NCBI RefSeq assembly: GCF_964204645.1
Contig: NC_134029.1
Span: 22,710,450 to 22,774,449, forward strand
Length of the DNA: 64,000 bases
Direction of reading: 5' to 3'
DNA from: Tubulanus polymorphus
Taxonomy: Eukaryota > Nemertea > Palaeonemertea > Tubulaniformes > Tubulanidae
Below, piece after piece: positions 23,643 to 59,500 of the stretch (its first letter is position 1; every line of letters starts with the position of its first letter). The position numbers and the translations under genes are program-made. The notes beneath the pieces are model-generated. The model ran no database searches. It was not told where the DNA came from and saw only the letters and a list, made by a program, of their open reading frames with translations.

Positions 23643-29991
<6,349 letters not shown>

Positions 29992-38660: not shown

Positions 38661-39049
38661 GTAAATATATGAATTTCTGATACTTTCAAGTAATTTCTTT
38701 GCTAATAAATACGTATGTTTTTTGGTAACTGTGTTTTGAACAATGTAAAAGTATGATTGATATCATCGATAATATTTATCTAAATAAAGCTCACTTAAAT
38801 TTGAATGAAATCCATGCTATGCATACATCCTGTAAAATGTTTTCTTCTTTAAACATTGCAAAAAATTGATTTAGAATTAAAATCTGATAGAATGAGACTT
38901 AAATCCTGTTCAATTGTCGAGCGGTGTAGTTTGTAAATGATTTTTTCGCTCAAATATTGTTTTACTTTCATACAAATTGTGAGATGAAGAGTTTTGGGAA
39001 CATTGGAAATATATGTTATTTTCATTTCAGTGATAGTAGAGAGTTAACG

Positions 39050-41485
39050 ATGGAAACTCCGCCACACATGCTCAGTCGATCGCGATCCTGTAGTCCGGAT
39101 TCGTCTGGCTCGTCGCCGAGACCGACGAACGGCGAAGATTACCGAATATCCGCGAATCAAGGGGTTCTCGGCAACCAAGCGCAAGAAAACTGCGGCGGCA
39201 ACGAAAGCCGTCAGAACCACGTATCTACAGTCGTACTTCGTCGGGTTCCGATCGTCAGTCTTTTCATCGACGGAAAAGAACGACTGTGTCTGGCGCAAAT
39301 ATCCAATACGCTTCTTCGAGATTATAGCTATAATGAAATACACAATCGTCGCGTAGCGTTAGGCATCACTTGTATCCAGTGTACCCCTGTTCAACTGGAG
39401 ATATTACGGAGACAAGGTGCGATGCCCGTATCGTCCAGACGGTGCGGTATGATCACTAAACGCGAAGCCGAACGACTCGTTAAATCGTTCCTCGAAGAAA
39501 TCGCACCCCCGAAGTTACCGGAAAATTTTGCTTTCGACGTCATCCACACTTGCGGCTGGGGATGTCGCGGTTTCTTTCTGCCGTCTCGTTACAACAGCTC
39601 CAGGGCAAAATGCATCAAGTGTTACTACTGTAATATATTCTTTTCGCCGAACAAATTCATATTTCACTGTCACAGGATGCCGACATCGACATATCGACCT
39701 CCGGACGCGGCAAATTTCAATTCTTGGCGTCGACACATCGTACTTTCCGAAAAGGACGCTAGCGATGATTTGGCATACGCGTGGGAGGACGTGAAAGCGA
39801 TGTTTAATGGTGGAAGTCGTAAACGGGTGGTGAGCGGAGGAGGAACCGCGACAGAAATAACAACTACCAGATCTCCAGTAGATGACGAACAACCCGAGGA
39901 TAGTAAGCGACCCTGCCTGGAGACAGTTCCCGCATTACCACAACGTGCAACCTACCCGTATCACATCTTCCCGATGGCAAATCCAAGTTATGGTTTTTAT
40001 GGGAACTTTTTCCAACGACAACCATCATCACACCCAGCGTTTCCGTACTTAACGATGGAGCGTCAAAGTTTCGGTCACGCCGCCTCAGCAACATCTCCGT
40101 CATCACCACCGCAAGAGCGATGTAAGTTCAACATGGCAGATATACTTCGAGGTTCGACTGCTGCTGGTGTGTCGCCGTATTCGTTATTCTGGGAGAAAAA
40201 CTTCGAAAATCGCCAAATGAACTTTCCATATTCTCCGAAAGGCGACAAAAAGCAGTCGAAATATTTGGCTCACGCGAATTGGTCGAACGAATCGTCGGTG
40301 ACCTCGCAACATCGCGACAATAAAACAGAACTGATCAAAGACTTTTCTCTCAAAAATAGAAACCAACAACAAGCGCATAGATCGTCTGCATTTAAAGCCG
40401 TGACAAATTCCGATATTATAATTCAAACGCCGGGAAAACAACACGCATCTATCGTGAAATCATCAGAATCAAAGGATACACATGATAATCCGGGGTTACC
40501 GGTAGCAGAAGATTTAAGTGTTCACGACGTTCAAGTTGATGTCTGCACTCGAGACAACATCCCGGAACCTTTAGACATCAAAGCCACGGCTGCCGAGAAA
40601 CTAGTAAGTAAAGTGTAATACATCATCCCACCGTAGAAAGTAATTTATAGCAGTTAATATATTTTTTGTCACTTGCAGGGCCAAACAATGGACAATAGGA
40701 AAGAATCGCCAGTTTCTGAAAGTAAAGAAGCGTATAAGTCAGGTAAGCTATGATCTAGTGATCGGTATTGACTTAAAGCGTATTAAATTTATCGTTAAAT
40801 TTTAACGCATTTTATGTTCTTTTCAGACGCTTTCCGCGAAGAAATTCAACGTCTCGTCGAATTAAGAGAAAAAGCCGACCACGAATATAAAATTCTGAAA
40901 GGTATGCGTATCTGATAACCCTCCGATTACACCGTTTATTCTAAGTATGAAAATATTGATTTAACCTCGTATTTCGCCCCGAGGGACTCGTCATGAACTG
41001 TCCTCAATCTTAACTAAAGTATCTAAATGATTTATGTATAAATTCGATAATTACAATAAAATGATGAAATCTATATTTCATATGCTATGAATGAATATTT
41101 TTATCACGCAATGCGGAGTGAATAAGTCTCCAGCATCTTTTCCTAAATGAGTTCACCATTCGTCGCTAACTACGGAATCGAATATTGATTAACTTATTGT
41201 CTGACCACTCGTCGACAGACAACAATACGAAGATACTCATAATTCCTATTATTTATTTTTAAGAAACGATGTACCAGGGTGACATGAACGCCGAAGACAT
41301 AAAAAATAAATTATCAGGTAAATGAAACGTAACATTTTGTCCAGGCAAATTCACGGTAGTTACTGCATCAGTTAATTATTATATTGAATAATCTGGTTAA
41401 TTTTTTTACAGAAGCTCAAAACGCACTACGAGAATTTGCAGCACGGATCGATGCTATTAAAGAAATTTCGTCACTTAATTCATAA
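39050..41485 (+). CDS. SKOR: SKI-family transcriptional corepressor (SKOR / Fussel / CORL)
   Basis: Five coding exons: 39050-40603, 40679-40742, 40827-40901, 41264-41317 and 41412-41485; 1821 bp, 606 residues. The ATG at 39050 is chosen because a splice acceptor ends at 39030. Residues 58-150 form the SKI/SNO/DAC homology domain (VPIVSLFIDGKERLCLAQIS, YNEIHNRRVALGITC, GMITKREAERL). Residues about 155-250 form the SMAD4-binding SAND-like domain, including WGCRGFFLP, YNSSRAKCIKCYYCN, FFSPNKFIFHCH, DAANFNSWRRHI and AWEDVKAMFNGGSRKR. These last motifs mark the SKOR/Fussel branch rather than SKI or SNO. The middle is low-complexity; the small last exons encode a coiled-coil-like tail (FREEIQRLVELREKADHEY). 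Homologues repress BMP/TGF-beta targets in neurons. Vertebrates have two paralogues, so a single orthologue name is not assigned. Confidence 0.94.
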
Positions 41486-44201: not shown

Positions 44202-46932
44202 TTATTTTTTGCCTCCCTTTCCCTTCTTGGTTGGCTCTGCCTTCTTCGCCGTCTTTCCCTTCTTGGCTGCCCTTTTGGCGGCAGCACTTTTCTTCTTTGG
44301 GGGTTTTTCAGTTGGAGCGGCCTGAAAATATTCCAGAAATCATTATTAATGTTAATTCAACATCGGCCTCACGATTGGACCCAACTCATTTAGGCTTATC
44401 CACTTTTCCCAGATTCCCTGAGTTGCTGCGTTATTATAACGTCAAACTTGTAACACAAAATTCCACGAATGAATCTGCCATGGATTAATGCAGAAATTTC
44501 TTGGTTCAAAATATTCTATTTTTCATGTATAGCGCTTAAGAAGATGTGTCATCAACGAAAATAGCATATGTGAATTCCCCAAGTTTATAGGTCCGCTCTA
44601 CCCTGACATTACATAATGATTTATTGACAATCAAAACTGTTAAATTATTATCGAATATGTGTCGGGCAGAATGAACATGACACTTACACCACGTTTCTTC
44701 ATGATCTCCAATTGTCTGTTCTTGCGTTGTCGTTCCTGAGCGAGAATCGCGTGTCGTTTCTGAACAGACGCGTACGGATTCAATCTGATCATCGTTCTGA
44801 TGTTCTTCAACGGATTCTTCTTCAGAACCTTTCTCTGAACGCGAGACCTGAAATTGATCACGATACAAAATTAAATACAATTCACTTAATTAACATATTT
44901 TTCTCTTTCAACGTATTCCCCCTTACAGATCAGGGAATCCAAATATCTGATATTTCCTCAACCAACTAAAATACTGATTCACTCAAAAAATATGCCGAGC
45001 TGTTTTGTAAGAGGCTATCTGTGCAACGAGACACCAAATATTCATATTCCCTGCCAGAATCCTGATCCCTAAGGAATACCAAACTAATATCTTACTTTCT
45101 CGGTCGAAGGGCGCTCTTGATTTCGTCACTCTTCAACAATCGAGCCAAATCGCTGTTTGTCATTTTCGGCATCGGTAAGTTGTAGTCGGTCTTTTCCTTC
45201 GAGGGTGTTTTCCAGGTTCCGTAAAGCTTGTCGAGACGTTTAAAAGCGGACTCGGTCCAGATACAAAATCGTCCGACGTGACCACCGGGGGCAATTTTTA
45301 AAAGATTCAAACGATTGACATTGATTAAAGTAATACCTGAAAAAAAAAGAAGATGATTATATTTAATTTGAAATTCATCATCATTAGGTCAAAAATATAG
45401 ATAAGTTTAATCTTAACTAATTCATAAATTCCATCCCGACCTCTGGGTACACAAATATTGCTTAACAGCCTGGATGGAACCTTCATATAAACTGAGGTGA
45501 GGGAATAGATCTTATAACACATTCATCAGTATCATATTTTCTTGCACTAACCTGGGATATTACGGAAAGCTCGGCAGATTCCATTGTCCTGGTTATAGAT
45601 AACAAGAGGACCTCGTTTCTGGATGCGGCGACGATTCCTCATTTTACCTTTACCGGCACGGAATCGTTTCGATTTGTAAACCTTTTCGATATCGGCCCAC
45701 GCCTTGAAACTCTTCAGAACTTTTACGGCCTCTTTCGTTCGCTTGATTTCTTCGACTTTGTCGGCGATGACCAACGGAACTTCGGGAGTCTCTTCAATTC
45801 GGTGACCTATAACCAGACGAGGGAACACGCGATATAATATCAATTGGACATAGGAGTGAGTCCAGGGGGACTTAACTTGTACAAGTCCATCAAATTTGCC
45901 TAAGATCTATCCATCTATTAGTCCCATTGATAAGATTTCAATTTATTTTATTTGACCATACACCCTTGAAAATCATAACCCAAGTATGGGACAATTGGAT
46001 CCTGGGCCCATACTATTAATCCTACTGAAGTGAACTCAACAGTAAAATCAAACCAAGAACATTCAAACTCTGATGTCTAGACTCAATATGTTCAGATATA
46101 TACCTTTAGACATGACGAGAGCTGGGATACCAGTAGCAGCGATTGCCGAGCACATGGCGTATCTCCTCTGGTTGATGTTGATACGTCTGTGCCAGCGTCT
46201 GTAAGTCTTAGTTGGAGCGAACATACGTCCTCCTCGGCACATGTTACCGAACGCACCCTGACCAGAACGATGAGTACCACCACCTCGTACACGAGGAATA
46301 CGAGCTACAGCTCGTCCTGTACCCCATGACTCAGCAGATGTCTGGTGACCTATAAACAGAACATTCATCAATGTTTACAACAATTTTCACTTCTTCGACA
46401 ATAATAAAATTCTAAATATCATTACAGGTTACTTCTCAATTAATTTACAATCTTCTTACAGTTGATCTTATTTCATTGAGACATCATCTTGTTGACTTAC
46501 CGGCATCTTTGCTGACAGCGTATGGTTGTCTGGTGTTCTTCAACATTTGGAAATGAACGAAGTTGACGATATCCGGCCTGATCGGGGCTCGGAATACTGC
46601 CGGCAACATAATGTTACTGTCGGTAGCTTCATTTTTATCACTATACACCGATATCAATGGACGGGCAGCCTGAAATAGTAATTCAAGAAGGGGATGCTTA
46701 GTTATAAAGTGATGGTCGAACTTACTCAGGCGGCCCGGGCAGCAAGCAAGTGCCGCCTTTAACATCAACTCAAGCCGCGCCGCCGGACCAGAAAATAAAA
46801 TCGCACCAAAAACTACTCAAAATAAACGATGTCTCCATCAACCCATACATCAATCATTTACTCATCACACAATTAAACATTTCAACTAATTTATAAGAAT
46901 AATTACGAACTAATTAAGGCAGAAATTACCAT
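44202..46932 (-). CDS. RPL4: RPL4, large-subunit ribosomal protein uL4
   Basis: Seven coding exons: 46930-46932 (ATG alone), 46501-46669, 46104-46349, 45552-45806, 45096-45336, 44688-44847 and 44202-44321; 1194 bp, 397 residues (human 427). The product is a core protein of the 60S ribosome lining the exit tunnel. Signatures: [116 protein letters not shown]. The C-terminal tail is Lys/Ala-rich as in other animals. The first intron follows the start codon directly. A 12.3-kb transposon separates the codon-proximal 40 bp of leader from the probable start site at about 59345. Family assignment is certain. Confidence 0.97.
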
Positions 46933-46972
46933 TTTATTTGGAGAATTATTTTAGCGTGACCGCTTCTACACG
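46933..46972 (-). other. RPL4: RPL4 5' UTR, codon-proximal part
   Basis: Forty bases between the ATG and the target duplication of the inserted element. On the minus strand this continues in sequence sense from the pyrimidine-rich stretch at 59331-59350, with one TGTCCGACC copy between them. Confidence 0.7.
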
Positions 46973-46981
46973 TGTCCGACC
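46973..46981. other. Target-site duplication, left copy
   Basis: TGTCCGACC, identical to 59322-59330. Nine bases is the standard duplication length of Mutator-like elements. Confidence 0.93.
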
Positions 46982-47025
46982 GCAAAAGGTTGAAAGCCTG
47001 TTTTGGTCGATGGCTAGTGACGTCA
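46982..47025 (+). repeat. MULE terminal inverted repeat, left
   Basis: Forty-four bases matching the inverse of 59278-59321 at 43 positions. It ends in the palindrome TGACGTCA, a CRE-type site, present in both ends and possibly regulatory. Confidence 0.93.
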
Positions 47026-47144
47026 TCAAGATCGCCTTTTTGTTACTCCCACAGCTAAACAACTCACTTTTAACGGTTAACCGCTGAATTTGAATTTTCT
47101 GTCAAGTGTATTCTTGCTGGCTGTTGATTAAAAGATTGTGAATC

Positions 47145-50100
47145 ATGTTTTCCGAACGTGTTAAGCTTGTCTCCGGACCAGTTGGTGGGAATATTGGTTT
47201 GAAAAAAGAGGTAGATTGCAAGATTATAAAAAACTCACTGGGTAACACTGGTGAACGCCGCGAGGATCGTACACGGTGGTGCAGGCGAGGCGTCGCGACC
47301 GCGCGGCGGCAGGGCTTTTTAATTTTGGCTTTTGCCAGTTTTGGAGTCTTGTTATTGCCACCACGGCCACGTTACCACCACACTCACATTGTCGCTAGGC
47401 CTACTGTACTGCCACTACTTTACTTGCTTGCTACTTACTCGGCTAAATTAATTTGTCTTCATCCACGCTTACTTCCCCCCTCCCCCCCCCCATGTTAACA
47501 AGTAATTTCTGCCAACCGAACCACCAGTCGCAGTAGCCGTAGGCAGTATACTATAGTGCAGTAGTGGGTACCCAGTGGCATGCCATTGCCATGCCACTGG
47601 GTATAGGCCTATGTTGCCCGTACACAGTCACCACCTACTAATGTCTATTTATTAATTGATGAGACCTGTTTTTCTTGGATATTTTGCTTACTTTTTGGGG
47701 TACATACCTCATTTATGTCTTAACAGAATGCCAAAAATCGCGGACAACAACTGAATATCCGATATATTTCCAGTTCTGTACCATTTAGATGGATTGGCAA
47801 AAAGACTCCTTAAGTCCAGTTGAATGAGAGAGAAAATCCTCCATTTTGTGAAATTTCTTGAATTTTTACATTGTCACCATGCCTACGAAATTAAGTTATA
47901 TTTCTTGTGGGGTCTCAACAACTAAATCAGGGTGGCGTAGGCATGGTAACAATGTTCAAATCCAAGAAATTTGACAAAATGGAGGATTTTCTCTCTCATT
48001 CAACTGGACTTAAGGAGTCTTTTTGCCAATCCATCTAATTGGTACAGAACTGGAAATATATCGGATATTCAGTTGTTGTCCGCGATTTTTGGCATTCTGT
48101 TAAGACATAAATGAGGTATGTACCCAAAAAAGTAAGCAAAATATCCAAGAAAAACAGGTCTCATCAATTAATAAATAGACATTAGGCCTTAAATATTCCA
48201 ACAACCATTCCAAATCCAGCAACAAAAAATAAACAATAAATTTTAAGGCCTCGAAACAGAAGAATGGTAGTTCCCTGTATTCAGAGTCAATGAAAATGTA
48301 TTTCTTGTTGCAGATAGATAGCCTAACCAATTTCAGGATAAGTACTTTTCATTCCTTTATTTATATACGTAGCCTAACTGTTTAATCCTGGCCCTGGCCA
48401 CTGAGGGTGTATGCATTAGGTCTGGTCCCAGTTTCACTGAGCTAGTTAGCCAACAATTAAGCTGAGAAATTTTGTTAATTTGATTTAGAGGAATCTTTTA
48501 ATTTAGTGCCTGATGTTAGGCCTTCCACAGCCTGGTAGAGGTGGTTTAGGTGAACAAGTTAGTCTTCACACTGCAGGACTTTTAGGTGAAGGTGAAACTG
48601 GCCCTTGTTTATGCATAGGCTACTGTGTGTGCACGCTTATCTTTATGCTTATTCAATTAGAATACCCATGTAGCTACCAAATAAGCACCGCTTCAGAGGA
48701 TTTTAGAAATTTTCACTTCAATAACACTGTGTTCTATTTTTGGGCACTAGCTACTATTATGCACAATTTTTTCAATCAATTCTATCACATTGATATACAT
48801 ATATGTGTCACTTCTTTTGCATGTAGTAGGGTCTTACAGTAACCAGTGTGCTCTCTCACACCTCCCTGTGATATTGGCCTGAGACTGACAAATAATCTTT
48901 TTTGTAGCGTATTGGTCTCGTAGCAGACAGCATTTTAAAGTATGCTGGGCTAGATGGTGTAGGCTTATTTGAATGGACAAGGATCGTGTGCCCCGGAGGA
49001 ACCATTGAAACATTGATGGAAGGTAATTTCTCGGTTCAGTACTGATTTATATTGTTCATTTTCATTGGGTTACTGATTAGTTGTATATTACAGAATTGAA
49101 AAAGGTGAAGATGCTGAATGTGGAACAACTAATCGTCCATGTTGGAACAAATAATATGACGTGTGATGTCCCGCTTGAGATTGTTCTGCGAAGACACGTT
49201 GAATTAATTCGATTGTTGCTCTATAAATGTACTGGGACCATCATTGTACCAGCTCTTTTTCCTCGATGTGATGAGTAAGTATCAAGAATAGATTTTTCTT
49301 GAAGTACTATATTTATGATCGATGTAATGATTTTTAAATTTCTTTCTTTTTTAAAGTTTCGATGCTGACACAAAAATATTTCATTACAATGAAATGCTGC
49401 ACCGCGAATGCTTTACACTTGGTGTAAAGTTCGTTGATTTTCACTTCTCAAGAGATCTCCTTTCACCGTAAGTAATCGTTTAATTTTAATAAGCCCAGTA
49501 GGTTATGTGCATTTTTTCGCGATTTAAACTAACTTGTTTTTTTCTAAATTTTGTGATCTAGGACTGACTTGTTACACCCCAGCCGTAAGGGAAATCAGTT
49601 CATAAATAACAGGATAATGGAACTACTGCTATTGAAAAATGAAGATGAAATGTACGTAGAATTGCATTATTTTATCCAATTACCAGGTATGCAAACTACA
49701 TAAATTTTATGATTGTACTGGAAATAATGAATGATTCTTAATCAGGTGCCCTCAATACTTTCCATATGAGATTGAAAAGATGCAAAGAAGTAGAGCAGTC
49801 CATCGACGAAAGGTAATCATTTAGCATTGATATCCTAGAAAATGAATGATTTGCAATTAGTTTTTATAACTTGAATACGAAACCACTTTATTCAAAATCC
49901 TTGCATTGAATTAATGAATCATATTGATAGCTGATAGCAAAAAACAAATTGAAGGATGATCAAGCAAGAGCATGGGATGATTCAACAATAGTGGTAAAGT
50001 TGTTTTCCTAAGTGATTTGTACGTGATTTATCTTTATAAAGTTAGATATATTTTAACAGTTTTTTGTATCCTTCAATCCAGTATAGCAGTTTTGACGTTG

Positions 50101-53100
50101 CGCATCATACAAGGAAACAATTCTGTTGTGAAGATCAAAGAGCCTTTTTCACATTCGACCAGGTACATATCATCTCAAGAACTTATGATTTAATATTAGT
50201 TTGGTCACTTTTATTTCACAATTACCTAAAGGCTGTGCATGCACAAATCTGTCTTTTTTTTCCAGTACATGACTAAAATTGATGTGGCTGGTGTTGCTAT
50301 TTGTTTAAAGCCTCAATTATTTACTCCTTTTTATCAGACTAAGAACGTGAGTAATATGTTTCTCGAAATGAAATTATAGAAATTCATTGGTATTGGTATG
50401 ATTTATGCTGTAAAGCTTTGTTTTCATATTCAGGGATGCTACAATAGAAGTTGTCACAATACTAAAAGATTTAACAGAAAAAGGAAGTCAGTGGAACATG
50501 TAAGTTTGATGCCCTTTCTGCGAGACGCGGGTTCATTTTTGTTATTTTTGCTTAGATGTTGAAGCAAAAACAGATTAATGTGCTCTTCCACATTAGGTTA
50601 TTCATCCACAGACGGATCCTGCTGACTCGACATGTTTTTGCGGAGTTGAATTCACCAATTGGAAAGATCTTCTAGACCATGTTAGTTTAAACCATACTGA
50701 AATGTAAGTACAACATAATTCAATTAATTTAGTACCTACAAATCTAAATGACTTAATGCAAATGACTCAGAGATACCCATGTTTTATGTTAGGCCTATAT
50801 GGGTAATTTCATACTCTATCTATTCATATGTCTAAAAAAAGTGAGTTGATAATGTGTATTTCAGGCGGACAATGGAGGAAGAAGGAAAGGACGCGGCTTG
50901 TGACAATTTCTCGGAAGGAACGATAGAGGAAGCAGAAAAGATGCAGGAAGATAGTTTGAAAGAAAGGATAGAAAGATTAAAGATGCAGGAAGATAGCTGG
51001 ATGGAAAACAAAAAACAGCTAAGTATCACAGGTGGTGGAGGTATCGAACCAATCATAATTGATGATAGTGATGAGAATGATTCTGATGATGAACATGTAT
51101 GTAGAAGAAATTTTAGTTACAATCCAACAGAAATGTGCCTCAATGACTATCAGTTTTTGAAAATTCCTCCTGTTATGCCATCAAAGGTCACGTCATTCAG
51201 AATTTGTGACATGTCTAATTCATGTCATTTGGCTGATGATGCCCCCACTATGCCCCACAAAAATCAGTTGGAGGACATAAAAGCACAGATGCAGTCAAGG
51301 ATTGTCCGTGACCCTTCCATTAATATCCATGTGAGACTCGATACAGGCTGCTATTCTATTGATCAGATTAATAGGTTTCTTTTCTTACATTATGCTAAAA
51401 CCAAACAACAAGATCTTTTTGCCATGAATCTTTGGGTAAATAGTAAGCCTTTAAGCCCCACTGATTCAGTCGATTGGGAACAGATTCAAGCATTTTCAAA
51501 TATGCTCTTTTCCTTAAAACCCTCTCAACAATTTCCAGTTGGTAATAATAATAGCGTATCTGTATCAGAACTTCAGACGATGACTAATCAAAAATGGTTT
51601 GAAGGATCTGTGTTAAATGCTTTTGCATCTATGATAAATGAACAGTACTGTAATATTCATGCATTTATGATGCCACTTACATTTGATGCTAAGAAATATG
51701 TTTCAAATTTATATAAAAGATTCGGTCCTAATCCACTCATAAGTTGTGATAAACTAATTTTTTTCCTGCATGTTGGCACCCAAAACGATTTCGTATTTCT
51801 AAATTCTTATGGACATGTTGTTGCCAATCATTATGCACTAGCAGTTTTTTACCCAAAAAGTAACAAACTGTGTTATGCTGATACACTAGCATGGGATTGT
51901 CCAAGGGAATTTAAAAATCATTTAAGATCTGTTTTGAAAGGTTTGAATTGCCCTGATCCTGTTTATATCCACCTCCATGATCCTCATTTTGTTACTGAAA
52001 ATTCAGTGCATGTATGTAGTAATAATTGTACTAGTTATTACCCACTCCAATCATGTTCATCTGTCTGTGGCCCTGCTACATTAATTGGTGCTTGCATTGC
52101 AACCTATTATGAAAAGGATATTTCAAGTGTATTTTCATCTCCCAATGAATTATCTTATCTTAAGAACATTTCTAACTATTCTGATTTTGTTAGATTGATA
52201 TTGATTAATTGGCTTATGAAACATCTAATTGATATTACTCAACTCTTCTCAAAGTCATCTCAACCTACTGCTAATAGTACTACTTTCTCTAAGATATCAC
52301 GATTATCTCGCAGACAGAGACATAAACGATCAACTGAGTCAAATAATACACTAGCTAGTTCTGAATTAAAGATGTCAGACTCTTATATTGCCCCTAAAAA
52401 AAGCAAATCAGTCTTAACTACAGCCAAATCTAAATCTACACCAATTTTGAATAATGAATCAACACTTGAATCTACACCAATTTCGAATTATGAATCTGCA
52501 GCAATTTTGACTAATGAATCAACACCAATTTCGAATAGTGAATCTGCACCAATTTTGACTAATGAATCAACACCTGAATCAACACCAATTTCGAATAGTG
52601 AATCTGCACCAATTTTGACTAATGAATCTACACCAATTTCGAATAGTGAATCTGCACCAATTTTGACTATTAAATCTACACCTGAATCTACACCAATTTC
52701 GAATAATGAATCTACACCTGAATCTACATCCTCAATTTTGAATCTTCAATCCTCATTAACTCTAAATTCAGCTGAACCATTAACTTCCCATATTAATGGT
52801 TCTAAAACTACTATCTCCCATCGCATCAGGAGAGGAAAGCATTATCTTGAAGTTGCTTTTCATTCAACTGGCAGTAAGACGAAGTATAAAAGTTTTCATT
52901 GTACAGACCAAGGTACAAATGACCAGGTAGCCATTGACACTATCAAGAAATACCTCAACAACCAGAATCCACTTAGTGATGAATGGGTTGAAAATGGGGA
53001 AGTAATGACTGGTGCTGACACAAAATATTATTTCGATAGATTCACTTTTGATTTTACAAAAACAGTTCGTCTGCATAAGAATGTGCGGCCTTCATTTGTT

Positions 53101-56100
53101 GGTAACCAGACAACGATGAAAGCTTCCTTAACATTAAAAAAGAATTGGCAAACCCATAGATTAGATAATAAATTTGAATTTATTGAGCCAATTGTTGAGG
53201 ATACTTCTCAATTTGTGGCTGCAGAAATGCTCATAAAATGTTCGTCAAAGTCTTCAGTTTGTAAATCATCATGTGGATATTATCTTTCAAAGTTGAATAT
53301 GTCCAGTAACATCACTAATTGTCCCTCATGTCAAATTGACGTTGTTTTAAATGATAAACAATGTATTCATTGCTCCATTACCATGTCTAACAAATGGAGG
53401 AAAAATGCTGATGGTGAAACACTTTGTTCCAACTGTTACAACTATAAGCTGAAGAATAAACGTGATCGTCCTGTGAAGTTAAGGCAGCAGTTTGAGCCAA
53501 AAAAATTAATTCACCCTCATTTTATGTGTTATTGGGCAACGAAACTTGTATTATTTAGTACTGATTTATCCAAGTGGAGAATCTTCAGCAAACCACTTAA
53601 TGGTCAATATCATGACAATATTCCTTTACAAATTAAAAAGCGACCTAATTTATCTACTAGAGATAGATGGGATGAAAATAGAGTCATGATGAAAGCCACA
53701 GCAATGAAGGTTCTTTCTGCCACCAATGCTCACAATAACCTTCATGTATCAAATGTAAATGATGGCGCCGGTCATGACCATACCCTAGATCAAATTTCAA
53801 ATAGATTGAAATATATTGATAAATCTTCGATAAAATTACATATGAAATCTCAAGACGAAATACCTATTCTAAGTTCTGATTGGAGAAATACTGAAAAATT
53901 ATTAGAGGGTAACTATGAATCTGTCCTTTTATTTCAACGAGGGGATGCCACACTCAAACGTAATTATCACATTATTCTCTCTGATCCTCGTTCTCTGGAA
54001 CATTTATCCAACTTTGGACAATCTGTCATTGGTATTGACGTGAAACATGATTTCAATTCGTGGAAATTCAAAACTTCATTTGTAACTTTTGCAGACAACA
54101 AAAATGAAGGACGTATTGCTGCTGCATCAATTAGTAGTGATGAAGGGGGGCTACTCATGCAACTACCATCCAGTTAGTTCTAGCCAATACACCATGTAAA
54201 GACGAAAAATGTAATCATCCATCTGAATTCTATATATTTAATGATGGCAATGGTTTTTTCAGAATCAAGCCATGTTCATCAACATCTAGATTTTGTCCTT
54301 TTGTACAACATGATAAAGATGCAAGTCTAAAGCAAGGAGCATCTGACAATAATCTTAAATCAGTACTATGTAATTTTCATGTCCTGCAGTGTATTCGTCG
54401 CTTCATGAATGAAAATCAAGAACTTCGCTTATTTTGCAAGCCTCTAGAAACTGGTTTCAAATGCATTATGAGATCATGGGATGCTTCCTCTAGAACTGAT
54501 ATAGCCAATTCATTTATTAGTTTTATTGAGAATGATATTTCTTTAGACCTTATGTCGCAAGATACAAAAACATTATTTATTGATTACCTAAAGAAGAATT
54601 GGTTTAATTCCCAAATTTGGTCTGATGCATTCAATGCTGAATCAATTTATCAGTCAGACCAATCTAACAGAAATAACCCTTTGCTATTAACTGATAATAT
54701 TACTGAGCGCAAATTCAAACAAATAGATGATGTCTACTTAAGTGGACACCTAAATAAACTGATATCATCTTTTGTACGATTACTGTTTGAAAATGTTTTT
54801 AATGATGAGATCAAAGCGACAAATATGAACAATCTCCAATTTAAGCAACTTGACCAACGAGTTAAGAATATACGTCACCTTGAAAAGATAGAAAAGTGTT
54901 GCAAAAGAGCCTTTGATTTATTACAGAATAATGAGATTTTAAAATATGATGAAGAAACTAATTGGTTTGTTGTGAAGAGTTCTTCACGAAAGAACTTAAA
55001 TAGGTTAGAAGATAATGATAATTTTTTCAATGGTGATACTCAATATACATTCAATCAGCTTGATGTTTTAGAAGAAAGATTCCCCGATAAAGTATCAATA
55101 TCCGAGGAACATTCATATGACATTTCAAAAAAATGCCGAAGGTACATAGGAAATTTAGATTCAATATCCAGTCGTATCTTATTCAATTACGTTATTACAA
55201 TCGTTCCTGAAAATTGTCTTTCATACGTAGATGGTAATTGCCATTTAATCAATTTGAAACTAGGTATATGTACTTGTGAAGCTTTTATAATGATTGGACA
55301 ACCATATTTTTGCAAACATCTTTTTGCCTGTTTTGCCCAAAAAAACAATATAACCACAACGAAGGCTTTAATTGATGCATATAAATTCCACATTGTGGAG
55401 CCTCTGCCAACTTACAATTTTACTCGACAAAATATTTCTGTTTCATCTACCCTCATTGATAAGTTAAAAGATCATTCCCACATTGCTAGCTCGAATGATA
55501 TCAATGCTGCTCGGAAAGGGCACATTCTAAGTATTTTACATAATGAAAGCCACTGTGGAATTAAGTTAATAAGCGGACGACCTGCCAAACGACAACCTCA
55601 CAATATGGCTCATAGGCGTGCTGAGGGTCCAATCAAGGACAATCAGGTTGCCATAAACCTTCCTGAACTTGAAGTGATAGACCCTTACTGCCCTAAGGTT
55701 ACAATGCCTAAAGATGCTGAGAATGCAAGACACGGAGGGCGAAAGATAATTAGACCTGCTAACAGAGGTGTATCCTTTTCTGCTATGGTTGAAAATGCTG
55801 CTATCAAACTAGGTAAAAAAGCTAAAATATCAGAAATTGAAACCATAGACTCCACTGATCCAGATCCTGGCAATGATATCGAATTTTCAGCAGATATTTT
55901 AAGTCAGAATAAATCATCCTTACCAAAAAAATCAAAAGATACCAAACCAAAAGATATTAAGTCAATACCAGTTGTTAAAAATGACTCGAAGTCTGTTTTA
56001 TTTGAAAAAAGTATTGTCTGTTCCTTTTGTATTAAAGACAAAATAAATCCTCCATATCTTTGTTCATGTCGCAGGGAACTAGATAGGCACATATCCACTT

Positions 56101-56600
56101 CTCATTCATCTTTGAAACCTATCTCATGTGCTATTTGTTGGGCAGATGGGGTTATTAATTCATATGCAAGTGAAACATTCCTTCAAAAGCACATTCGTAT
56201 TGAACATAATCATCATAAGAAAAAATCTATTGTAATCGATTATAATAATAGAGATGATTATCTCAACAGTTCTCCTATTACAGAAATCAATAATTCCAAT
56301 TCTGAAAAAGAATTAGAAATTCTTATAGATCAACCTGGAAATGCAGGCCTCCAAAACCTAGCAAAATTGAAACTAGATAATCTTTTGTCATCAAAAGTTG
56401 AAAAAACCCCTTCTCAGTTAGTTGCTGAAACCTGCCCTGTCTGCCACAAAAACTGCAATGCTAATCCTAAGAAAAAGTCCACATTCTCAATTGAATGTGA
56501 TAATTGCCATAGATGGTATCATTGGAAATGTGCTCCAATCAATGAGGCTCCTCCTGAACATATCAGGTGGTTTTGTTTTCATTGTGACCCGATTTCCTAA
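47145..56600 (+). CDS. MULE multidomain transposase: SGNH - C2H2 - Ulp1 protease - GATA finger - DDE - SWIM - PHD
   Basis: Exons: tentatively 47145-47210 (weak donor), then 48908-49022, 49094-49274, 49357-49467, 49562-49651, 49746-49812, 49931-49993, 50082-50162, 50266-50346, 50434-50499, 50597-50703 and 50865-56600; about 2250 residues. Exons 2-5 read as an SGNH hydrolase: LVADSIL (Ser block), CPGGTI (Gly), HVGTNN (Asn) and DLLHPS (Asp/His). A C2H2-like finger (CFCGVEF, then LDHVSLNH) ends exon 11. In the large exon: Ulp1/C48-like protease (NHYALAVFYP, YADTLAW, QSCSSVCGPATL; about 51750-52110), a Ser/Thr/Pro repeat (52437-52735), a GATA-type finger (CIHCS, KWRKNADGETLCSNC; 53362-53475), the transposase start (IGIDVKHDF at 54031; HDKDASLKQG then CNFHVLQC), SWIM (CTCEAF, FCKHLFAC), two finger-like segments and a C-terminal PHD finger (56432-56590). 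The frame breaks once at the G tract 54145-54150. Confidence 0.8.
47571..47601. repeat. Short hairpin
   Basis: CCCAGTGGCATG and its inverse CATGCCACTGGG separated by seven bases, close upstream of the large hairpin. Confidence 0.8.
47639..48184. repeat. Long hairpin with 249-bp arms
   Basis: Left arm 47639-47887 and right arm 47936-48184 are near-perfect reverse complements, from TAATGTCTATTTATTAATTG to CCATGCCTACG, with a 48-bp loop. It lies in the putative first intron of the MULE gene. A transcript through it would form an almost uninterrupted duplex of about 250 bp. Confidence 0.95.
52437..52735 (+). repeat. In-frame tandem repeat in the MULE gene
   Basis: Units of 36-60 bp encode variants of STPISNSESAPILTNE, repeated about six to eight times with no frame loss. 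It forms a disordered Ser/Thr/Pro linker between the protease and GATA-finger regions. Confidence 0.9.
54145..54150 (+). other. Frame break in the MULE gene (G6 tract)
   Basis: Upstream frame stops at 54175-54177. The +2-related frame downstream is open from before the tract to the stop at 56598-56600 and continues the transposase domain without loss of similarity pattern. One missing base in a run of six G accounts for the break. Assembly error, inactivating mutation or ribosomal slippage are possible. Confidence 0.85.
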
Positions 56601-57364
56601 ATAGTTTGTATAGAATATTATTGATCGGGTTTCGAATGAATTCCTGACGTTAGAAATATTTTCATTTCCCATGGTGAACGTAGAAGCCTATAATGACCGT
56701 CACTTAGTCACCTATATATTTACTCGATTATATATAAGGTTAAGAAGCGATGTATATGCACTGGTGTTTATAGTGCTCTATTTCAGGTTTTTTCTTTCAG
56801 GAAAATATATTTTGTGAATAGATTACCGCTTGATTTTTTATGTTACAGGTTACTGCAAAATCATCAGTTATTGTGATGCGTGCCGATGTCTCTGGATGAT
56901 TCTGACCATGTCTAGAACTTCAACATCCTTGACTTATCATCAATTGGCAGCAGTATACATACATGCATGTTCAGAGAGTGTATGAAGAGAGTGTATGGAC
57001 ACATCAACCTCGGTTCAAGGCTGTCCCTGATTAAATTGTATAATCCATATATAATATATATAGATTGGTCCCATTTTAACTTACTCAACTGCTTGAATGT
57101 CTTGTTTGTTATTCGTAAATTTTCACTTATTCATTGATTGTTTCTGTAGAATTTTATATGTGATATATAAACGTGGAAACCAGGGCCCATTGCACTATGA
57201 AAGACACTTGACATTTTTTTGGGACAGATCTTTCTATATGTTTATGTCCTCGAGGCATCTGAAGTTAAGAAAATTCCCTTTGAAAACTGGAAATGACATA
57301 ATGAAATAAGTTGTGGAATGTTTACAAATGACAAAATGAATGAATTTTGCATTCCTAAGGCCCT

Positions 57365-58240
57365 ATATATTTACTGCAGTTAGTCCTGTATGTCTTTTTT
57401 ATCGCAATTTACTGTGGTTTATTCCTGTTTGTCCTGTATGTCTTTGTGATCGCGATCGCAATTCATTGGTTGCATTGTTTACTGTTAGTCCTGTATGTCT
57501 ATCGCAATTAAGTTAGTCCTGTATGTCCTGTATGTCTTAGTTAATCGCAATTCATTGGTTGTTGAATTGTCTACTGTTAGTCCTGTATGTCCTGTGGTTT
57601 AGTCCTGTATGTCTTAGTTAATCGCAATTCGTTGGTTGAATTGTCTACTGTTAATCCTGTATGTCCTGTATGTCTATCGCAATTAAGTTAGTCCTGTATT
57701 TCTTAAATAATCGCAATTCATTGGTTAATGAATTGTCTACTGTTAGTCCTGTATGTCCTGTGGTTTTGTCCTGTATGTCTTTGTGATCGCGATCGCAATT
57801 CATTGGTTGCATTGTTTACTATTAGTCCTGTATGTCTATCGCAATTAAGTTAGTCCTGTATGTCCTGTATGTCTTAGTTAATCGCAATTCATTGGTTGTT
57901 GAATTGTCTACTGTTAGTCCTGTATGTCCTGTGGTTTAGTCCTGTATGTCTTAGTTAATCGCAATTCGTTGGTTGAATTGTCTACTGTTAATCCTGTATG
58001 TCCTGTATGTCTATCGCAATTAAGTTAGTCCTGTTTGTCCTGTATGTCTTAGCTACGAGCAATTATCAAACTTGATAATTGCTCGTAGGTCTTAGTTAAT
58101 CGCAATTCATTGGTTGCATGGTTTACTGTTAAAGCTGTATGTTCTGTATCTCTATCGCAATTTCATTGGTTGCATTGTTTACTGTTAAAGCTGTATGTTC
58201 TGTATCTCTATCGCAATTTCATTGGTTGAATTGTTAACAG
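57365..58240. repeat. Higher-order minisatellite
   Basis: Basic phrases TTAGTCCTGTATGTCT, TATCGCAATTAAG, TTAATCGCAATTCATTGG and GAATTGTCTACTG are arranged in a longer block that repeats with a period of about 339 bp (the phrase GTGATCGCGATCGCAATTCA is at about 57448 and 57787). It lies between the MULE gene and the right end of the element. Confidence 0.9.
58053..58088. repeat. 17-bp-arm hairpin inside the minisatellite
   Basis: CTACGAGCAATTATCAA and its exact inverse separated by two bases. It interrupts the array once and is not part of the repeat unit. Confidence 0.93.
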
Positions 58241-58385
58241 TCCTCTGTATGTACATGTAAAAATAATTAAGGTTCTGACAACAGGTTTGTAAAGTAATCA
58301 GCTATCTGTTTTGTCTATCGTTGCTTAAATTGTTAACTGTTGTTTTAGAGTTCTGTATGTCTTTGTCGATCATTTTGTCTGCACT

Positions 58386-58618
58386 CAGGGGCGGATCCAG
58401 CATTTTGAAGGCAAATGAAAGCAACAACAGATGGCTGTAAGCCATTCCAGAGCAAGCACCGATAACGCGAAGACCCTCCCTAAAAATTTTTTGGAAAAAT
58501 AGATGCAAGCAGGTGCATTCTGAGCATTACTTAATAGAAAGATTTCATTCGGTTTTTACTCAGTAACGCATAGATTTGCGGCTACATCGGTAAAAATAGA
58601 GGGGTGGAACCGCCACTG
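58386..58618. mobile_element. hAT-like MITE nested in the MULE
   Basis: About 233 bp with ends CAGGGGCGGATCCA and (inverse) TGGAACCGCCACTG, the type of end typical of small non-autonomous hAT elements. The flanks give no clear 8-bp duplication. Confidence 0.6.
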
Positions 58619-59277
58619 AATAGCTATTGTTTTGTGTAGGATTGTATCTGTGAATTAAGTAAAGTTACTTACTCCAGTCTGATGTTATTGCTTATTGCTC
58701 GTATTTTATTGTTTTAAGTGTGCGAATACTTTTCTTAGATTTATGGAGATCAGGATGACGAGGGTTCGATTTGAACCAACAAATAAACAAAAACATTCAA
58801 ACCTCAAATTAATCCGTTTACTTGTCTTTATTTTTGGGGAACATTTTTTTACCTAGTTCAGATTTGATAACACAGTAGTCGCTTGTTCCAAAGCGATGTG
58901 CCGTTGAAGACAGACATGAAGGTCTTTGCCGACAGCGATGCTATCCAGGATTTCAAAGGATGTGAAGAAGGTGCATCTTCGACAACCATAGTTTGCAGTT
59001 TTAACAATTTAAAACAATAATAGTTTCATTAAACAACTTAAAATTTAAAGATTTAGTGGACTTACTGTTTAACCAGGGCAGGGATTTCTCGCAACCGTAC
59101 ATGATATATACATACACTAGCAGTAAATACAATGTACTTCTAACCCTTATAAAACTTAAACTATTTTTAGTTATTTTACAATTATTAAACGGCAACGTTG
59201 AAATGCGATGTGCGCTCAGAGCGGCCGTAGTGATTTTGGCGTATTGTGGGATTCGAACCGCTCGGAATTTGTACTAG

Positions 59278-59321
59278 TGACGTCACTCGCCATCGACCAA
59301 AACAGGCTTTCAACCTTTTGC
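59278..59321 (-). repeat. MULE terminal inverted repeat, right
   Basis: Inverse of 46982-47025 with one mismatch (C for A on the plus strand within the segment). Followed directly by the second TGTCCGACC. Confidence 0.93.
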
Positions 59322-59330
59322 TGTCCGACC
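59322..59330. other. Target-site duplication, right copy
   Basis: TGTCCGACC, identical to 46973-46981. Confidence 0.93.
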
Positions 59331-59500
59331 TGAAAAAGAGAGAAAGTAGATCGACGAGGTGGGCGGTGAACAGGGTCTGAGAAATAGTTCAAAATTTCAC
59401 AGCAATAACAGCTATATTTCGTTTATACTTCTTATTCCAAGCATATTCTATTTGTGAGATAGGAAATTTATGGACATTCCAATTATATTTTATATACATG
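59331..59500 (-). promoter_or_regulatory. RPL4: Displaced RPL4 start site and promoter
   Basis: Read on the minus strand, the bases next to the duplication are CTTTCTCTCTTTTTCAG, a pyrimidine tract like the 5' TOP initiators of animal ribosomal protein genes. Removing the element and one target copy would give a leader of about 60-70 nt to the RPL4 ATG. No TATA box is seen. The tract also resembles a splice acceptor, so a leader intron cannot be ruled out. Confidence 0.6.

Follow-up and report, generated by a model that had tools for sequence, protein, structure and literature searches.

Elements of the little-known Rehavkus kind carry a 9-bp duplication of the target (TSD) and terminal inverted repeats (TIRs) of 26–400 bp; their transposase has a PHD finger, a minisatellite precedes the 3′ TIR, and they have been treated as an outgroup to the Mutator-like elements, or MULEs (PMC6446971, Table 1). 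MULEs surveyed in arthropods measure 1.4–10.0 kb (PMC13359780). Mu elements of maize insert most often near transcription starts, in correlation with H3K4me3, a preference for which open chromatin has been named as the cause (PMC2774946). The same histone mark is read by the PHD finger of TAF3, a component of TFIID, through a cage formed by W868, W891, M882 and D877 (PMC12238850).

The window analysed here, a stretch of 64,000 nucleotides from the nemertean Tubulanus polymorphus, holds a transposon with several of these traits within the 5′ leader of the ribosomal-protein gene RPL4. Taken as a whole, the locus is best explained if a Rehavkus-like element inserted recently by cut-and-paste transposition; it would have been mobilised in trans, belong to a family favouring gene starts and be present as a segregating allele, an account in which we place good confidence.

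The interrupted leader of RPL4

RPL4 lies on the minus strand and is intact, with seven exons, no frameshift and consensus splice sites. Comparison with the PDB identifies its product as uL4 (best E = 2e-184), with vertebrate and other chains scoring above the Drosophila chain. The start codon stands alone in exon 1, the donor following directly. The gene, the two halves of its leader and the borders of the element are arranged as follows.

44202–46932, minus strand: RPL4 coding exons, an intact CDS of 397 aa (46932–46930, 46669–46501, 46349–46104, 45806–45552, 45336–45096, 44847–44688 and 44321–44202)
46930–46972, minus strand: RPL4 exon 1, made up of a 40-nt leader remnant (46933–46972) and the ATG (46930–46932), then intron 1 (GTAATT...TTTCAG)
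46973–46981, no strand: left TSD, TGTCCGACC, exact over 9 bp
46982–59321, plus strand: Rehavkus-like DNA transposon of 12,340 bp, given in transposase orientation, opposite to RPL4, and recognised by its TIRs, exact TSD and about 30 sister copies
46982–47025, plus strand: left TIR of 44 bp, terminating in the palindromic TGACGTCA (47018–47025)
46982–46989, minus strand: outermost element bases toward RPL4, CCTTTTGC, in the former place of CTTTTTCA, with a putative function
59278–59321, minus strand: right TIR of 44 bp, with TGACGTCA at 59278–59285
59322–59330, no strand: right TSD, TGTCCGACC, exact over 9 bp
59331–59346, minus strand: ancestral RPL4 pyrimidine tract CTTTCTCTCTTTTTCA, a probable TOP-like start region (a 3′ splice site is less likely), resembling tracts in eight ribosomal-protein genes

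These coordinates bear out the abutment described in the initial annotation, with the pyrimidine tract against the right TSD copy and the 40-nt leader plus ATG against the left one. The perfect 9-bp duplication and the 44-bp inverted ends with one mismatch were likewise confirmed. The sole mismatch falls at the 34th base, T on the left and G on the right. Almost every sister copy shows the same difference, with T in its left and G in its right end; it is therefore a fixed trait of the family rather than decay. About 30 more copies share these ends elsewhere in the genome, and for 19 of them the local target sequence is duplicated exactly over 9 bp, which excludes chance; counting the RPL4 copy, exact duplications flank 20 of the 27 paired copies. 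The palindrome TGACGTCA, a CREB/ATF-type site, is present in both TIRs and kept in almost every copy seen.

A sister insertion at C6:22.7M provides the transposon family with direct empty sites: eight or more further copies of the repeat it invaded match the joined flanks without the element. This repeat is multicopy and itself bears YY1-like and ETS-like promoter words. Elsewhere, the unplaced 244-kb contig C13 starts (C13:1–158) just beyond a sister copy, six bases from its right end, which looks like an assembly break at that insertion and could reflect either heterozygosity or the repeat. For RPL4 itself, a probe of the joined flanks found in the assembly only its two halves and no element-free copy. 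The check for a second cytosolic RPL4, in which the assembly was searched with the RPL4 protein, likewise returned the window locus as the sole match; both results apply to an assembly that is a haploid representation. A Pfam L4 search of the genome gave one further match, on C1, which is probably a mitochondrial paralogue because the RPL4 protein itself matches the window locus only. Other genes in the window include a UBE3A-like gene named by eye (26837–29216, minus strand) and a Ski/Sno gene (38930–40618, plus strand; PF02437, PF08782), and a search of the window for RNA families gave zero matches.

Starts were located for eight ribosomal-protein genes other than RPL4 in the same genome, and all eight have a pyrimidine tract immediately 5′ of the first coding exon.

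RPL3: CTCTCTTTTTCAGATC
RPS4: CTTCCTCTTTT
RPS6: CCTCTTTTCC
RPS11: CCTTTCC
RPS15A: CTTCCTCTTCT
RPS18: CCTTTTCC
RPS23: CTTTCTCTTC
RPL23: CTTCCTCTT

The RPL3 tract (GCTCTCTTTTTCAGATC) is nearly letter-for-letter equal to that of RPL4 (TCTCTCTTTTTCAGGTC). Because similar tracts precede the first coding exon in these eight genes, the earlier proposal that the insertion divides the RPL4 5′ leader is well supported, and the likeness to RPL3 and the others supports the reading of the RPL4 tract as a TOP-like start region. The tract might instead be a 3′ splice site, used in cis or in spliced-leader trans-splicing, in which case the element would have entered the start of a spliced leader exon. The score of TCTCTCTTTTTCAG, at 22, is higher than that of five of the six RPL4 acceptors, and CAG also terminates the RPL3 and RPS6 tracts. 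However, the tracts of RPS18, RPS11, RPL23 and RPS15A have no terminal AG, whereas a TOP start suits all nine genes, and we regard the splice-site reading as unlikely. Even under that reading, the insertion is still within the RPL4 leader.

Structure, classification and age of the element

The interior of the RPL4 copy contains a transposase in two pieces, a minisatellite and a smaller nested insert.

47640–48183, no strand: nested 0.54-kb foldback insert with arms of about 250 bp and TA on both sides, missing from two sisters
50845–54177, plus strand: N-terminal part of the split transposase frame, with the first catalytic-D region (VIGIDVKHDF) and a GATA-like zinc finger
54144–56600, plus strand: C-terminal part of the transposase, with a CNFH motif, a SWIM-like CxC...CxH and a PHD finger
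54144–54149, plus strand: G run that causes the frame split, six G long in this and two further copies and seven G long in three sisters
56433–56585, plus strand: PHD finger (PF00628, E = 1.5e-5), its nearest solved relative being the TAF3 PHD (PDB, E = 3.5e-9)
57428–58235, plus strand: minisatellite between the transposase and the 3′ TIR

The transposase frame of this copy is broken into two ORFs by a one-base loss in the G run. The copies at C4:12.48M and C12:9.99M have the same six-G frameshift, and an assembly error is for this reason unlikely, with a shared homopolymer error conceivable. The arms of the foldback insert are 97% complementary, and it is probably a nested mariner-type miniature element. 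The initial annotation had called the transposon full-length, a description that stands for its length and fails for its intactness, given the split frame and the nested insert. Within the transposase ORF, 24-bp tandem repeats at 52433–52756 encode a repetitive ESTPISNxESAPILTN stretch, which is likely to vary between copies.

The label of MULE given to the element holds for the type of its TSD and TIRs and has to be narrowed for the rest. The exact 9-bp TSD of the RPL4 copy and 19 others, a 44-bp TIR inside the 26–400 bp range and a minisatellite preceding the 3′ TIR all correspond to Rehavkus, as does the PHD finger, which scores above the PF00628 cut-off and is also found in diverged families here. 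The comparison also covered a single transposase ORF and a host in Arthropoda or Annelida; a single ORF is present in sisters (at least seven with 1,918 codons) and broken in the RPL4 copy. As to the host, a search of the assembly for COX1 gave no match. The element differs from Rehavkus in carrying the additional GATA-like and SWIM-like motifs, and its 12.3 kb exceed the range of the surveyed arthropod MULEs. A canonical MULE would also have a TSD of 8–11 bp and TIRs, features common to Rehavkus, and the CNFH and SWIM-like motifs, both read by eye, would be in keeping with it. Yet no Pfam MULE or MuDR transposase domain was found in the element at E values up to 5, only PHD and GATA domains, and both the PHD finger and a minisatellite in front of the 3′ TIR characterise Rehavkus (PMC6446971), which makes a canonical MULE quite improbable. 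The element is better read as Rehavkus-like, because the PHD finger, the minisatellite and the TSD and TIRs fit and the Pfam MULE domain is absent; the assignment is one by trait description.

The family is young. In the longest aligned blocks, two full sisters are 99.75–99.87% identical to the RPL4 copy, and over 10,572 compared bases the RPL4 copy has seven private substitutions and the two sisters eight and six. One sister encodes a single transposase ORF of 1,915 aa, and the frame of 1,918 codons stays open in at least seven copies, which suggests that the family is probably still active. The frame-broken version seems to have moved in trans, since two other copies share its six-G state, and the RPL4 copy would have been moved by a transposase made elsewhere. 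A diverged Rehavkus-like family is represented at C6:15723173–15725125; it is 42% identical over the C-terminal part and has an open frame of 1,787 codons and a PHD finger with Trp at the position of TAF3 W868.

Consequences for RPL4

In the preferred account, a Rehavkus-like transposon would have inserted a few bases downstream of the pyrimidine-rich start region of RPL4, inside the 5′ leader. A segregating insertion, probably heterozygous in the sequenced animal, is most likely, because the family is young and the disturbance of a ribosomal gene is costly. Expression of RPL4 from this allele is probably reduced, and its residual transcription would most likely begin at the outer end of the element. 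Three outcomes had been put forward for the locus, namely a near-null allele, a start inside the element and removal of the element by splicing; a near-null state, an element start and partial splicing are not separable from sequence alone.

Several features of the junction bear on these outcomes. A leader read through from the old tract would measure 12.4 kb and contain 244 ATGs. Transcription starting at the element end would give a leader of 57 nt with no upstream ATG, the same as the ancestral length, and TGACGTCA is found roughly 36 bp in from the end that faces RPL4. These features, the positional match between CCTTTTGC and the CTTTTTCA it replaces among them, were noted after the fact and back a hypothesis only. 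That hypothesis, in its strongest form, is a fixed or homozygous insertion with RPL4 well expressed from the outer end, where TGACGTCA in the TIR would be a CREB/ATF-type site and CCTTTTGC a new TOP-like start. It would accommodate the intact state of RPL4 as the sole copy found, the retained leader length free of upstream ATGs, the occurrence of TGACGTCA in both TIRs and nearly all copies seen, and the similar CCTTTTCCGG with which RPS18 begins. Sister copies, on the other hand, have an identical end, so there has been no tuning to RPL4, and the positional match carries the weakness already mentioned. A fixed, well-expressed allele of this kind is therefore possible and clearly the less expected state.

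Transcription might also continue from the old tract, with most of the element removed from the leader as a large intron. A donor-like ACAGTAAGT (about 59062) and an acceptor-like TTTTAATCAACAG (47121) score in the range of known sites in the gene set, on a crude splice-site model. By the same model, sites near the junctions are weak (CAGGTCGGA scores 4.3, against 6.2–11.1 for known donors), and element sequence would stay on both sides of the spliced leader; such a splicing rescue is very unlikely. Should the insertion be tolerated, the locus would offer a natural test of how the expression of an essential, mTOR-regulated ribosomal gene persists or is lost after its start region has been moved by 12 kb.

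Apparent insertion-site preference and the PHD finger

The RPL4 copy is not alone in lying next to a gene start. Genes were recognised within 1.5 kb of the insertion at eight sites, amounting to 11 gene ends, and all 11 turn their 5′ side towards the insertion. In four cases the start codon is at most 80 bp away from the duplication: RPL4, GIPC (79 bp; PF25083), DDX46 (identified by PDB match) and an unnamed ORF. Other genes at insertions include an SR/RRM gene, a DOMON gene, a GPCR and SGF29 (at an internal exon), together with whirlin-, TLC- and SLC35D-like genes named by eye only; the whirlin-like domain had zero matches in the PDB.

Sequence words around the insertions were examined with an unbiased test of all 7-mers within 40 bp of 20 insertions against 300 displaced controls. 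ACTTCCG, an ETS-type promoter word, was the top 7-mer, at a level exceeded by none of the 300 controls. Three repeat-embedded or doubtful sites were then removed, after one of the promoter-motif sites had turned out to be part of a multicopy repeat; ACTTCCG still ranked first, though less strongly, with corrected values of 16/1000 at 40 bp and 57/1000 at 60 bp. A hold-out set of 19 ends, taken from copies that were imperfect, single-ended or unpaired, had no motif excess (1 against 1.4); several of these ends sit in repeats. A first, stronger motif statistic was dropped in favour of the unbiased test, as its motifs had been picked after the flanks were read. Overall, a preference of the family for gene starts is likely but not proven, with moderate support, and the evidence for targeting is suggestive rather than conclusive.

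The transposase itself contains a candidate for such targeting. After TAF3, the closest PDB relatives of its PHD finger are those of CXXC1 and BPTF, both of which are readers of H3K4me3. As in TAF3, the transposase finger has a CDxCxxWYHW core that includes the equivalent of the cage tryptophan W891; unlike TAF3, it has Glu at the equivalent of W868 and Ser at that of M882. More distant families in the same genome retain Trp at the W868 position. An AlphaFold model of the isolated PHD finger was of insufficient quality (mean pLDDT 51.8) and was discarded. It is conceivable, if doubtful, that the TAF3-like finger reads H3K4me3 and directs integration to active promoters, the outer end of the element then serving as the start of the invaded gene; such reading would explain the insertion at the start of RPL4.

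The wider interest of the locus lies in this apparent gene-start preference combined with a TAF3-like PHD finger. The element resembles Mu/MuDR of maize in its 9-bp TSD and in insertions apparently gathered at gene 5′ ends, and differs from it in the length of its TIRs (44 bp, against about 215 bp in Mu) and in the PHD finger of its transposase. To our knowledge, maize Mu has not been described as having such a finger. The family may represent an animal counterpart to the gene-start preference of Mu, with a candidate cause in a PHD finger related to that of TAF3.
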